DNA of 33,680 nucleotides from assembly GCA_020348925.1 (NCBI GenBank), contig CP070758.1:3915701-3949380 (forward strand). Reading direction: 5' to 3'. The notes beneath the pieces are model-generated. The model was not told where the DNA came from, did no database searches, and saw nothing but the letters and a program-made list of their open reading frames with translations. This DNA is from Gemmatimonadota bacterium (GTDB taxonomy: Bacteria; JBHIER01; G020348925). Positions 14,160 through 19,122 of this stretch are shown in pieces (position 1 is the stretch's first letter; each line of letters begins with the position of its first letter). A program made the translations under genes and the position numbers.

Positions 14160-14233
14160 CAAGGGATTGATCCGGTTCGGTTACGAATAGTCTGGTGTAT
14201 CTCAAGTTCATTTCAACCGAGAGGAGGGTCCCA

Positions 14234-15337
14234 ATGCCCGATAAGATCACCCTGAGTGTTATCAAAGCGGATATTGGCGGTTATGTGGGCCATTCAAGCT
14301 CGCATCCTCAGATCTTGAAGAAGGCTGAGGAACGGCTCGATAAGGCTCGTCATAAAAAACTGCTGGTCGATTTTTATGTGACCCACTGCGGTGACGACCT
14401 TGAGCTCATTATGACACATCGCAAAGGCACCGAGGATCAGGAAGTCCACGAGCTGGCGTGGAACACCTTTGTTCAATGCACGGAGGAGGCGAAGAAACTG
14501 AAACTCTACGGTGCCGGTCAGGATTTACTCAAGGACGCCTTTTCGGGGAACGTCAAGGGGATGGGACCCGGGATCGCGGAGATGGAGTTTGTGGAACGGA
14601 AGAGCGAGCCCATCATCATATTCATGGCCGATAAGACGTCTCCGGGAGCGTGGAGTATGCCGGTATTCAGAATGTTCGCGGATCCTTTTAACACGGCAGG
14701 GCTCATTATCGACACCAACATGCACGGCGGCTTCGTCTTTGAAGTCATGGATATCAAGGAGAACAAGACCATCAGGCTCTCCTGTCCCGAGGAGATGTAT
14801 GATTTGCTGGCCTTCATCGGTTCCATCAACCGCTTTATGATCAAAGCCGTCTACCGCAAGAGCGATGGGGAGATCGGTGCCGCGGCTTCAACGGACCGTC
14901 TGAGCCTCATCGCCGGCAAGTACGTGGGCAAAGACGATCCGGTCCTCATCGTCCGCTGCCAATCAGGACTGCCGGCGGTTGGTGAGGTGTTGGAGCCTTT
15001 CGCTTTTCCGCATCTCGTGGAGGGATTCATGCGCGGATCGCATCACGGCCCCATCATGCCTGTCTCTTTCGACCAGTCTACCCCCAGCCGTTTCGACGGA
15101 CCGCCACGGGTGATCGCCGCCGGATTTCAACTGGCCGATGGACGCCTCATCGGACCGCGGGACATGTTCGACGATCCGGGCTTCGATCTGGCTCGTCAGA
15201 AAGCCAACGAGATAGCGGATTATATCCGCCACCACGGACCCTTCGAGCCCCACCGGCTCCCCATGGATGAGATGGAATACACGACCATGCCGGATATTAT
15301 GAAGAAGATGGAGGATCGGTTTCAGAAGCTGGATTAA
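14234..15337 (+). CDS. Bifunctional fructose-1,6-bisphosphate aldolase/phosphatase (archaeal type)
   Basis: The 367-residue protein matches the FBP aldolase/phosphatase family of archaea and deep-branching bacteria. One active site condenses triose phosphates and then dephosphorylates fructose bisphosphate, committing carbon to gluconeogenesis. Visible signatures are the metal-binding N-terminus KADIGGYVGHSSSHP (Asp, His), HCGDDLELIMTH, GNVKGMGPGIAEMEF, FRMFADPFNTAGL, and the late GSHHGPIMPV and TPSRFDGPPRV motifs. Length agrees with the family. The ATG at 14234 has AGGAGG 6 bases upstream; an upstream in-frame TTG lacks support. It is the first gene of a plus-strand run. The presence of this enzyme suggests autotrophic or gluconeogenic, probably anaerobic, metabolism. 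Confidence 0.95.
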   Translation: MPDKITLSVIKADIGGYVGHSSSHPQILKKAEERLDKARHKKLLVDFYVTHCGDDLELIMTHRKGTEDQEVHELAWNTFVQCTEEAKKLKLYGAGQDLLKDAFSGNVKGMGPGIAEMEFVERKSEPIIIFMADKTSPGAWSMPVFRMFADPFNTAGLIIDTNMHGGFVFEVMDIKENKTIRLSCPEEMYDLLAFIGSINRFMIKAVYRKSDGEIGAAASTDRLSLIAGKYVGKDDPVLIVRCQSGLPAVGEVLEPFAFPHLVEGFMRGSHHGPIMPVSFDQSTPSRFDGPPRVIAAGFQLADGRLIGPRDMFDDPGFDLARQKANEIADYIRHHGPFEPHRLPMDEMEYTTMPDIMKKMEDRFQKLD

Positions 15338-15347
15338 TGCGTAACGA

Positions 15348-16211
15348 ATGAAAATTCACGGTTACATCGGTATCCTGATTATTGTCTTCGTTAAGGTTAC
15401 CCTCATCTTTCAGGTGCAGCCCTTCATCTCCTGGACGACACCGACAGCGTGGACAGGATATATCCTTCTCGTGGACGCTATCATTTACCGGTTGAAGGGC
15501 CAGTCCCTCATCTGTCATCGTCCCAAGAAATTCCTAACACTGTTGCCGCTGTCAATTGTTCTGTGGGTCATCTTTGAACTGTACAACCTTCATCTGGTGA
15601 ACTGGGAATATATCAATCTCCCGGGCAATATGGCTCTGCGACTGTTTGGGTATTGCTGGTCGTTCGCCACAATTATTCCCGCAATTGTTCTGACATCGGA
15701 GTTGTTGGAGACACTGCATCTTTTTGACAAGGCCCGAATGAAAGCTGTGCACGTCACAAGAAATGCTCTCTATTTTTGGATAGTCATCGGGCTCGTTTTC
15801 TTAATTGCCCCTCTTCTCTTTCGGCAGTCTATTGCGGTCTATCTCTTCGGTCTTGTATGGGTAGGCTTCATCCTTGTTCTCGATCCATTGAATAAAATTG
15901 TTGGTCGTCCGTCCCTCTTCGGAGATTTGGAAAATGGGAAACTGGACACGATTCTGTCCCTCATGGTGGCCGGGTATGTCTGCGGTCTGTTCTGGGAATT
16001 CTGGAATTACTGGGCCCACACCAAGTGGATCTACACGTTTCCCATAACCCAAAACATCAAATACTTTGAAATGCCCGTCGTGGGATTTTTGGGGTTCGGA
16101 CCCTTTGCCCTTGAGCTCTTTGGCATGTACCATTTTTCCGTGTTTCTGAAGCGGAAGGCTTTTCGTGAAGAAATTCGGTTGTCCGAAAAGGTGCAGAATC
16201 GTTACCCTTAA
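15348..16211 (+). CDS. Polytopic membrane protein with WEFWNYW motif, unknown function
   Basis: The 287-residue protein has about seven to eight hydrophobic segments. Conserved-looking features lie near the C-terminus: GLFWEFWNYWAHTKWIYTF and EMPVVGFLGFGPFALELF, with aromatic and acidic residues inside membrane segments. I have an impression of a widespread uncharacterised family with WE(F/M)WNYW motifs, and the GFLGFGPFALE phrase loosely recalls membrane carotenoid cyclases, but this is not enough to assign a function. The ATG at 15348 lies 10 bases after the aldolase stop without a strong ribosome binding site, so translation may depend on the upstream gene. The adjacency to a gluconeogenic enzyme is probably not functional. 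Confidence 0.85.
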   Translation: MKIHGYIGILIIVFVKVTLIFQVQPFISWTTPTAWTGYILLVDAIIYRLKGQSLICHRPKKFLTLLPLSIVLWVIFELYNLHLVNWEYINLPGNMALRLFGYCWSFATIIPAIVLTSELLETLHLFDKARMKAVHVTRNALYFWIVIGLVFLIAPLLFRQSIAVYLFGLVWVGFILVLDPLNKIVGRPSLFGDLENGKLDTILSLMVAGYVCGLFWEFWNYWAHTKWIYTFPITQNIKYFEMPVVGFLGFGPFALELFGMYHFSVFLKRKAFREEIRLSEKVQNRYP

Positions 16212-16308
16212 AACCGCCAGACACAAAGATGCATTCCTCAAGAAAGCCATTGTTTATTCTTACGATGATGGTTCTGGATGAAAGCAGGTACGTTTCGGGA
16301 GTGTGACC

Positions 16309-16968
16309 ATGCCTTGGCAGAAAGCAGTGCTGATACTCGAAGTCAACTATGATATTCATACGGGAGGTGCTTTCTTTGAAGAGGAGGAAGGACCTTCTGA
16401 GGGAAAACTTTTGGAGGAGTTCTTTCGAATGATGGCCGCTCCGTACAGATTTTTTTCGATCCGCACTCCGGCAGAAATGGGTGTGCTCATTTCAAGATAT
16501 CCGGCGAAATATGTTCACATTTCAGCCCATGGGATTGTCGATCAACCCACGGGAAAACTGGGAATCGAATTCCCTTTCAACATGAAACACATCGTGTATG
16601 AGATGGGGCAGGAGGACGATCTCGTTGAGACAGTGGAGGAGCTCGAGCTGCATCGTCTGTATCGCTATTTAAAGAATCGGGTCGTCTTCGCTTCAGCCTG
16701 TATGCTGGGCAAGGAACAATTTGCCAGAGAATTCGTCGAGAAATCGCAGTGCGAGCTTTTTATCGGGGCGAACTACCGAGCCTATTGGTACGATCTGGCC
16801 GTCTTCTCCCAACTTTTTTATACATCAATTTTCAGGGAAAACAAGAATGCCCTTCAAGCCGTAAAACGGGCCAAAAGGCAATATCCGAGACTGTTTCGAG
16901 GAAAACATTTCATCGAGGTGTGGAAGCCGAAGATCAAGAAACCTGCCAAAAAAACACAGTCACAATGA
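16309..16968 (+). CDS. Stand-alone CHAT-like (caspase-fold) protein
   Basis: The 219-residue protein resembles a bare CHAT peptidase domain. The two diagnostic motifs are in order and at the expected spacing: YVHISAHG, with candidate catalytic H74, and VVFASACMLG, with candidate catalytic C131. A LFIGANYRAYWYDLAVFSQLFY segment and a Lys-rich tail follow. CHAT domains are cysteine proteases related to caspases, normally fused to TPRs or found in conflict systems such as gasdermin or type III-E CRISPR modules; here no sensor domain is attached. ATG 16309 has GGGAG 7 bases upstream; a GTG six bases earlier is less likely. The stop overlaps the next start (ATGA). The fold is inferred from motifs; partners are unknown. 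Confidence 0.72.
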   Translation: MPWQKAVLILEVNYDIHTGGAFFEEEEGPSEGKLLEEFFRMMAAPYRFFSIRTPAEMGVLISRYPAKYVHISAHGIVDQPTGKLGIEFPFNMKHIVYEMGQEDDLVETVEELELHRLYRYLKNRVVFASACMLGKEQFAREFVEKSQCELFIGANYRAYWYDLAVFSQLFYTSIFRENKNALQAVKRAKRQYPRLFRGKHFIEVWKPKIKKPAKKTQSQ

Positions 16969-17513
16969 AGATTGAAATACCTCTCTCGAAGGCGAATCGA
17001 CTCATCAATCATGGGCCGACCGTGCTCATCACGAGTCAGTCTGGAGGCAGGCCGAACATAATGACGGCGGCCTGGCAGACGCCGGTCAGCAAGGATCCCC
17101 CTCTGGTTGCAGTCAGTATTGCACCGGGGAGATATTCGCATCAGCTCATAGAAGAGAGTCGTGAATTCGTAGTTAATGTGCCGTCACATGTTCTTCTCAA
17201 AGAGGTCCACGGTTGTGGTACGGTGTCAGGCCAGGAAGTTGATAAGTTCAGGAAGTTTGGTTTGACGCCAGAGGATGCAGCTCACGTCGGAGCGCCACTC
17301 ATCAAAGAATGCATAGCCCACTTGGAGTGCAGGCTATACGACTCTTTTGGGATTGGGGATCATACCCTATTCGTGGGTCAAGTCCTTGCGGCTTCGGTGG
17401 AGGAGGATCTCTTCGACGATTTCTTAAAAGTTGATGATCCCAGGGCGAAGACGCTTCATCATCTGGGAAGTAACAAGTACACGTGTCCCGATCAGCGTAT
17501 TGAAGTAGATTGA
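16965..17513 (+). CDS. Flavin-reductase-like FMN-binding split-barrel protein
   Basis: The 182-residue protein fits the flavin reductase/flavoredoxin family. It has VLITSQSGGRPNIMTAAWQTPVSKDPPLVAVSIAPGRYSHQLI, typical of the FMN-binding face, then EFVVNVPS and a CRLYDSFGIGDHTLFVGQVLAA strand pair. Such proteins bind FMN and pass electrons from NAD(P)H or ferredoxin-like donors in the cytoplasm. I chose ATG 16965 because it overlaps the upstream TGA (ATGA) and begins the family-like MKIEIPLSKANRL; a longer frame would read into the CHAT gene. The overlap implies translational coupling with the CHAT-like protein. The substrate is unknown. Confidence 0.88.
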   Translation: MKIEIPLSKANRLINHGPTVLITSQSGGRPNIMTAAWQTPVSKDPPLVAVSIAPGRYSHQLIEESREFVVNVPSHVLLKEVHGCGTVSGQEVDKFRKFGLTPEDAAHVGAPLIKECIAHLECRLYDSFGIGDHTLFVGQVLAASVEEDLFDDFLKVDDPRAKTLHHLGSNKYTCPDQRIEVD

Positions 17514-17556
17514 GGACAATCACTCATTCGTTTATTGACAGCCAAGAAAGAATCAG

Positions 17557-17832
17557 ATGGCCTTTAAAGATCTGAAGGTGACCTGTGTGAAAGCCGAGGG
17601 GGCATGCAGCCGTACCAAGGTTGGTAGTACGTTTTACATCAAGAATGCCCGCCTGGTGATCCCACCGGGGGAGAGTATCTGCATGTTTGCCCTGGGGAGC
17701 CTTTTGCCGCCCCTCACAGGCGCGATCATGAAGACCGAGGAGGGGGAGGGGATGTTGGACCTCCTTGAGGAGTGGCAATGCCCCGATCCTTTGGCCAAGG
17801 TCATCTTCAAGATAGAAGAGGAAAAATCGTAA
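17557..17832 (+). CDS. TIGR04076-like small conserved protein
   Basis: The 91-residue protein fits the pattern I know as TIGR04076, a conserved family of unknown function. It begins with a VTCVKAEGACSRTKVGSTF strand pair, then SICMFALGSLLPPL in the middle, and a closing CPDPLAKVIFKIE. Three or four cysteines (residues near 10, 17, 42 and 75) are positioned as in that family and may bind metal or act in redox. ATG 17557 follows AAGAAAG at a workable distance. It lies 43 bases after the flavin-reductase-like gene on the same strand and may close the transcription unit, because a repeat and then a convergent gene follow. Confidence 0.75.
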   Translation: MAFKDLKVTCVKAEGACSRTKVGSTFYIKNARLVIPPGESICMFALGSLLPPLTGAIMKTEEGEGMLDLLEEWQCPDPLAKVIFKIEEEKS

Positions 17833-17860: not shown

Positions 17861-17933
17861 TCATTCCTGCGAAGGCAGAGCCTGCCCCGTATTTATTACG
17901 GGGAATCTCCTCGGTTGATGCAACACACTTTCT
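17861..17933. repeat. Interspersed palindromic repeat, copy B
   Basis: This copy begins TCATTCCTGCGAAGGCAG and contains the same core as 5058-5096, with one base different in the core. Its central palindrome is more complete here: CCCCGTA and TACGGGG form a 7-bp stem. It lies 28 bases after the TIGR04076-like stop, so it could also act as a 3'-end hairpin for that transcript. Confidence 0.75.
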
Positions 17934-18090: not shown

Positions 18091-19122
18091 CTACTCCAGA
18101 TGCATATAAAATTCTTTCGGCTGGAGTTCCTGAAAATCCCCTGTTCGTACAAGGTGTTTCCGCATATCAGTACAGAGATGGCATTTTGAGAAATAGCCGG
18201 TGTGTGCCTCCTTGTACCCGTACTCTTTCGAAAAGTTGAAAAGGCCTTGGAGGTCCTCGTTTATTAAGAAGCTCAGTACGGGATGCTTTTCTGGTTGAAT
18301 TCCCTCTCTCAGTAATGAGTCAAGATCCCTGCAATCGCCGTACGATATCCCGCCACAATATCCCGGGATATAATTTCCATAATTGTCGAAGTGGTTATGC
18401 CACTGTCGTGCGAACGACGGCACGCAGGGCTCATTGAAGAAGGCAGCGGCAGGATATTTGGGATATGCTCCCTGCAGTCTTTCCTCCAATGCATAGGCGG
18501 CCCGTCCATTCATGAAAAATTCCACATTTCTCATGAACTCCTCTTTCCTCTCGAGCTTGAGATAATCGTCTATGTTCAGTCTTTCTTGAATTCCCCATTC
18601 TTTAAATCGTCTGTAATATTCCGGCTGATAGACCGCCACATTTTGGCCGAAGATTTCGAGACCGATTCGAATGGCACGTTCCGTTCGTTCAAAGGGTACA
18701 AATTCCAGATAGAAGGGGTTGACCGAAATTAATATCCCTCGCATTCCACTTTCTTTGAGGAGTCGCATCTTATTTCTCGTTCCCTTATCGTTGGTCGACC
18801 AATAACAGTTCGTTTCAACGAATAAGGAGGGAATTCCCAATTCATGTGCCATCTCCGTTGCTTTGAACAGGAGCTCGAAGTTCAGAAACGGTTCGCCACC
18901 GGTAAAGTGGAGCCCATGATTGAGGCCTATTGATTCAGGGCCGTAAGGAGCCGGTTCTATCGTGCCGGCCAATTGGCTCAAGATCTTACCCAGGTTCTCT
19001 TCGGACATCCAGTCCGCATTCCATTTCGGAGAACAGGCGTACATGCAGTGCAGACACTCGGCGTTGCATTTGTAGGAGAGAATGAGTCCACCTGAGATGG
19101 GTTTGGGTATACGAAGAATCAT
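18091..19122 (-). CDS. Radical SAM protein with SPASM-like C-terminal cysteines
   Basis: The 343-residue protein has the radical SAM CX3CX2C motif at C19, C23 and C26 (YKCNAECLHCMY) and the GGEP motif (HFTGGEPFLN) that contacts SAM. Cysteines at 233, 256, 264, 314 and 317 (the last two in KCHLC) could ligate an auxiliary iron-sulfur cluster, as in SPASM proteins that modify peptides or mature enzymes. The ATG at 19122 has AAGGA 7 bases upstream. I looked for a short precursor peptide nearby and saw none, so the substrate is unknown. It is convergent with the TIGR04076-like gene. Molybdenum-cofactor or coenzyme-synthesis families do not fit the motif pattern clearly. Confidence 0.88.
   Translation of the reverse strand: MILRIPKPISGGLILSYKCNAECLHCMYACSPKWNADWMSEENLGKILSQLAGTIEPAPYGPESIGLNHGLHFTGGEPFLNFELLFKATEMAHELGIPSLFVETNCYWSTNDKGTRNKMRLLKESGMRGILISVNPFYLEFVPFERTERAIRIGLEIFGQNVAVYQPEYYRRFKEWGIQERLNIDDYLKLERKEEFMRNVEFFMNGRAAYALEERLQGAYPKYPAAAFFNEPCVPSFARQWHNHFDNYGNYIPGYCGGISYGDCRDLDSLLREGIQPEKHPVLSFLINEDLQGLFNFSKEYGYKEAHTGYFSKCHLCTDMRKHLVRTGDFQELQPKEFYMHLE

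Follow-up and report, generated by a model that had tools for sequence, protein, structure and literature searches.

A compact, stand-alone CHAT-related protein with a predicted caspase fold, encoded ahead of a flavin reductase gene in a Gemmatimonadota bacterium

The window (the whole stretch of 33,680 nucleotides analyzed here) encodes mostly housekeeping proteins, including a CvpA-type protein, MutS2/Smr, DnaG, M16 peptidases, a PALP enzyme, and an inositol monophosphatase. Within it lies a gene for a small protein with a predicted CHAT-related caspase fold ("window protein"), with the following features in and around it.

14195 to 15337, + strand: fructose-1,6-bisphosphate aldolase/phosphatase gene (PF01950, 7.6e-187; NF041126 above cut-off)
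15348 to 16211, + strand: gene for a protein of 287 aa, several stretches of which are hydrophobic, 97 bases upstream of the CHAT-related gene
16309 to 16968, + strand: gene for the stand-alone CHAT-related protein of predicted caspase fold, 219 aa (relatives by tblastn and HMM, AlphaFold2 model, Foldseek)
16339 to 16341, + strand: codon of Glu11, a family-specific N-terminal residue
16528 to 16530, + strand: codon of the predicted catalytic His74, in HISAHG (residues 70-75)
16699 to 16701, + strand: codon of the predicted catalytic Cys131, in ASACMLG (residues 128-134)
16819 to 16821, + strand: codon of Tyr171, family-specific
16965 to 16968, + strand: ATGA start/stop overlap of the CHAT-related and flavin reductase genes, read from the sequence
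16965 to 17513, + strand: gene for a flavoredoxin-like FMN-binding split-barrel flavin reductase, 182 aa (PF01613)
17557 to 17832, + strand: gene for a TIGR04076 family protein, 91 aa (NCBIfam)
17874 to 17886, + strand: possible weak terminator 3' of the TIGR04076 gene, from a consensus scan that was overall not above chance

The CHAT-related ORF begins with ATG at 16309 and ends with the stop codon at 16966-16968; an in-frame GTG is present at 16303. The fructose-1,6-bisphosphate aldolase/phosphatase gene ends 10 bases ahead of the gene for the 287 aa protein, which had no match in Pfam or NCBIfam. An earlier note, made from the letters of this DNA, had described the ATGA overlap with an FMN-binding split-barrel gene and a TIGR04076-like gene 43 bases further on, and both are present as described. 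The flavin reductase scores 135.9 bits against PF01613 (cut-off 27; 1.6e-39), and its nearest solved structures are 3e4v, PH0856 (2r6v), and flavoredoxin (2d5m). The alignment of its closest homologue (L013) starts from the same first residue, which supports the ATG at 16965. The spacer of 43 bases occupies 17514-17556, and the TIGR04076 family protein scores 46.0 bits against a cut-off of 33; two further copies of its gene are found elsewhere in the same genome. On the opposite strand, at 18091-19122 (-), the window also encodes a radical SAM protein that weakly resembles the YydG-type and viperin models, scoring far under the cut-offs of both.

The window protein has a sub-threshold match to the Pfam CHAT domain (PF12770; E 0.018, 15 bits vs a gathering cut-off of 24), and is therefore termed CHAT-related rather than a Pfam CHAT member. 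No match was obtained against the NCBIfam and PADLOC models (PADLOC at E up to 1) or the Peptidase_C14 profile of metacaspases and orthocaspases (E up to 1), and no credible match to the sequences of solved structures was obtained by sequence alone. The two clan CD motifs are present in the correct order, His-Gly as H74-G75 and Ala-Cys as A130-C131, at the coordinates and within the motifs that the earlier note had proposed. Its description of a bare, CHAT-like caspase fold holds for the fold, given the model and the relatives described below, although the protein misses the Pfam CHAT cut-off.

Plain searches with the window protein returned nothing from a genome contigs collection, plasmids, or 386 genomes of many lineages; those weak matches from the 386 genomes that were inspected belong to unrelated proteins, Lon among them. 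When a widened HISAHG pattern was scanned across 84,980 species genomes and each match was confirmed by tblastn with the real window protein, six relatives were obtained, from Mesorhizobium (two), Freyarchaeota, Caldisericota, Bacteroidales, and Buttiauxella. Artificial alignment rows served only to widen the scan pattern and entered none of the conservation, profile, tree, or structure results; one alignment of such rows was dropped as too variable. Using the relatives as tblastn queries on plasmids added members from Paracoccus, Vibrio, and Salmonella plasmids. The Buttiauxella member as a blastn query led to members on E. coli chromosomes (6 of 5,426 E. coli genomes were positive) and had no match in the phage records searched. 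One member lies in a viral contig, and a profile search identified five further members in four genomes. Together, the 18 relatives found come from archaea and several bacterial lineages, and also from plasmids, a viral contig, and E. coli islands.

All family members are small (179-268 aa). Two relatives (L098 and L095:5806-6573) are longer at the N-terminus by a segment of about 60 aa, and in the copy from the viral contig (L093:468-1070; IMGVR_UViG_2898811059_000003) the motif reads HISAHA instead of HISAHG, with the His and Cys retained. Where members are annotated, in records of E. coli, Salmonella, and Vibrio, they are labelled as hypothetical proteins. Among the relatives tested there was no credible NCBIfam match and only weak partial PADLOC matches, including BovA (Borvo) in three relatives (best 0.0011), while relative L062 exceeds the Pfam CHAT cut-off (28.1 vs 24 bits). 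The family, whose members are compact, stand-alone, and marked by a residue signature of their own, seems to be uncatalogued, and Pfam covers it only in part. The family is the new part, not the gene pair; the fold and the chemistry are already known.

No substitution occurs at H70, H74, S129, C131, or Y171 in any of the 19 aligned members, so that both predicted catalytic residues are kept in all 18 relatives, and E11 is found in 18 of the 18 members having the position. E31, G32, and R29 are near-universal, with Pro replacing R29 in the window protein. The family signature can be written as E...R-x-E-G...H-I-S-A-H-G...S-x-C...Y. Because the scan pattern fixed H70, S72, H74, and G75, conservation at these positions is biased for the first six relatives; C131, S129, Y171, and E11 were outside the pattern, and the conserved sites also hold in the members that tblastn, blastn, and profile searches added later. 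When the family profile was searched against all PDB sequences, the sole match up to E 1 was the SAVED-CHAT protease 8tl0 (0.0092). The window protein itself sits on a long branch (2.54) and shares at most 32% identity with any relative, and its function may therefore have diverged.

An AlphaFold2 model of the window protein, built on eight real sequences, has a pLDDT of 78.8 and a pTM of 0.79. Foldseek ranked as its matches the SAVED-CHAT protease 8tl0 (6e-8), caspase-7 (2e-6), the transmembrane anti-sigma factor DdvA (2e-5), the TPR-CHAT protein of Craspase (7zoq, 3.8e-5), and separase (2e-4). In the model, H74 follows the third core strand (68-72) and C131 follows the strand 125-129, which is the order expected of a caspase dyad. 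Taken together, the model, the structural matches, and the order of strands and motifs provide good support for a predicted caspase/CHAT fold (clan CD) with a His74/Cys131 dyad; the non-caspase-like prediction by which the earlier note's reading would have fallen did not occur. Proteolysis would be the corresponding activity of the window protein, as we infer from this dyad. An earlier structure prediction from one sequence was poor (pLDDT 38.9; top match SAVED-CHAT at E 0.19) and was not relied on.

Several known proteins resemble the window protein in part. The SAVED-CHAT protease 8tl0 is the top structural match, and its alignment with the family profile spans the His and Cys motifs, but 8tl0 has a SAVED sensor domain whereas the window protein has a single domain. 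TPR-CHAT (Csx29) of Craspase shares the caspase-fold CHAT domain, yet the window locus has neither its TPR domain nor its CRISPR effector partner; there, a single-domain protein is surrounded by housekeeping genes. Caspase-7 and other C14 peptidases share the caspase fold (TM about 0.5) at only about 15% identity, and the window protein lacks a Peptidase_C14 Pfam match. Relative L095, one of the two with the extra N-terminal segment, falls just under the cut-off for DUF6642 (PF20347; 25.1 vs 27 bits), whereas the window protein has no match to it. CHAT is not mentioned in a 2012 survey of prokaryotic caspase homologues (PMC3501461).

The downstream gene product belongs to the same family as the flavoredoxin and NADH:FMN oxidoreductase-like proteins of 3e4v, 2r6v, and 2d5m, although no other genome examined links these with a CHAT-related protein. 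Across a sample of about 110 kb from the genome of the window, one of 26 close co-directional gene pairs has a 4-base overlap, namely the pair of the CHAT-related and flavin reductase genes. Where adjacent bacterial genes overlap, an overlap of 4 bases is common, and the sample is small, so the overlap alone points to genes that are probably co-translated, not to functional partners. The two genes are thus probably translationally coupled, and the flavin reductase and TIGR04076 genes are probably co-transcribed with the CHAT-related gene on what would be one transcript.

Counterparts of the flavin reductase, the TIGR04076 family protein, and the other neighbors were sought among all ORFs around the 18 relatives, which lie outside the phylum and allow a long-range comparison only, and were found in 0 of 18. 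Likewise, none of the 29 closest flavin reductases, drawn from 192 genomes, is encoded beside a CHAT-related protein (0/29), and a single-sequence search identified no TIGR04076 homologue near them. A literature search for papers combining the CHAT domain, caspase-like proteins, and flavin reductase returned none. The coupling of the CHAT-related gene to the flavin reductase gene therefore appears to be seen in this genome only. The earlier note had suggested obligate co-expression of the pair and a redox-controlled protease module; neither is supported by this long-range survey, in which the pair is absent from every relative and every close flavin reductase examined.

We consider it probable (about 0.68) that the window protein acts as a CHAT-related cysteine protease of one domain (His74/Cys131), is regulated in trans, and is encoded in an operon of mixed housekeeping genes next to the gene for a flavoredoxin-like protein. 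It would be a compact cysteine peptidase of a small, uncatalogued, and partly mobile family. The protein has no sensor domain, and activation in trans is accordingly the most likely mode: it would most likely be held inactive at rest until a partner or signal switches it on, by analogy with the CHAT protease of Craspase, which depends on an RNA-guided partner (PMC9729208). Once active, it may cut one or a few cellular proteins. The flavoredoxin-like and TIGR04076 genes would share the operon with it as neighbors, without providing a dedicated regulatory partner.

Most of what is known of CHAT proteases in prokaryotes concerns domains that are fused to sensors. The generalization in the earlier note that CHAT domains are normally fused or found in conflict modules needs amending for the present family, which is small and stand-alone by nature. 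It represents a sparse group of minimal, free-standing CHAT-type proteins that occur in archaea and in several bacterial lineages, as well as on plasmids and on integrative elements of enterobacteria. The E. coli island member, a protein of 190 residues with the predicted caspase fold, offers an easy laboratory system in which to learn what CHAT-type proteases of minimal size cut and what triggers them.

The neighbors of the relatives differ from lineage to lineage. In Enterobacteriaceae, the CHAT-related gene is part of a recurring cassette (L069:11378-13549, L070:11389-13812, L071:11389-13093, and L066:5309-7482) with a divergent HTH gene, a gene for a membrane/LprI-like protein, and usually one for a small secreted-looking protein. 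Two E. coli cassettes are located on integrase-bearing elements between dinD and yicC, and a third lies next to dinD at a rearranged locus that also contains IS elements and flagellin genes. The Salmonella member is carried by a 4 kb plasmid. On the Vibrio ponticus plasmid pVPon1 (L068:5507-8564), the CHAT-related gene adjoins SIR2-family and AAA ATPase genes, an arrangement that resembles known defence loci. Another relative lies beside phage-like genes. The L098 member (G040) is found inside what we take, from reading the sequences, to be a cluster of thiolase, enoyl-CoA hydratase, and acyl-CoA dehydrogenase-like genes (L098:3814-7895), and the Caldisericota member has a neighbor gene that is presumably RmuC-like, likewise named by reading its sequence.

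These settings bear on a second explanation, in which the family serves phage defence or abortive infection on mobile elements and the window copy would be a member that was captured and now has housekeeping neighbors. The relatives on integrative elements, on the Salmonella and Vibrio plasmids, beside phage-like genes, and in the viral contig give a defence ancestry or role its weight, and CHAT proteases do serve in Craspase (PMC9729208). However, the window protein is without a PADLOC match and its relatives have weak partial ones at most, the window neighbors are housekeeping genes, and several relatives reside in ordinary chromosomal or metabolic settings. A defence ancestry or role is a tentative possibility, at roughly one chance in five.

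The window protein could instead be a catalytically dead, caspase-fold binding protein. Inactive caspase-fold relatives are generally known, and the genome itself encodes one canonical CHAT copy in which Trp replaces the Cys. Such a role is unlikely here, however, as the His and the Cys are invariant across very diverse members and the Cys was not part of the search pattern.

Somewhat more doubtful still is a redox-controlled module, in which the flavoprotein would bind the CHAT-related protein, the FMN redox state would gate cleavage, and the TIGR04076 family protein would act as a further redox partner. The ATGA overlap and the 43-base spacing, the flavoredoxin-like nearest structures, and the rank of this overlap as the only one of 4 bases among the close pairs sampled are consistent with such a module, but the survey of the relatives and of the closest sampled flavin reductases, including the search for TIGR04076 homologues near the latter, argues against it. 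The least probable reading is a lineage-specific obligate pair of the CHAT-related protease and the flavoredoxin-like protein with flavin redox state gating proteolysis, and we know of no prokaryotic example of a redox-triggered, caspase-type switch.

The genome is a single contig with N gaps (L007:8466-8565, L008, L009, and L011), one of which breaks the 16S rRNA gene about 350 positions in. In L008, a CHAT fragment that was considered as a second stand-alone CHAT protein is probably a piece of a gene, as it lies next to an assembly gap. The genome also encodes two canonical CHAT proteins of about 1065 aa (L011:6855-10052 and L010:9195-12389), and the one in L010 adjoins sigma-factor-like and anti-sigma-like genes. 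At the position of the catalytic Cys, the L011 copy has Trp (LSAWETG) whereas the L010 copy has LSACETG; the L011 copy may therefore be an inactive paralogue.
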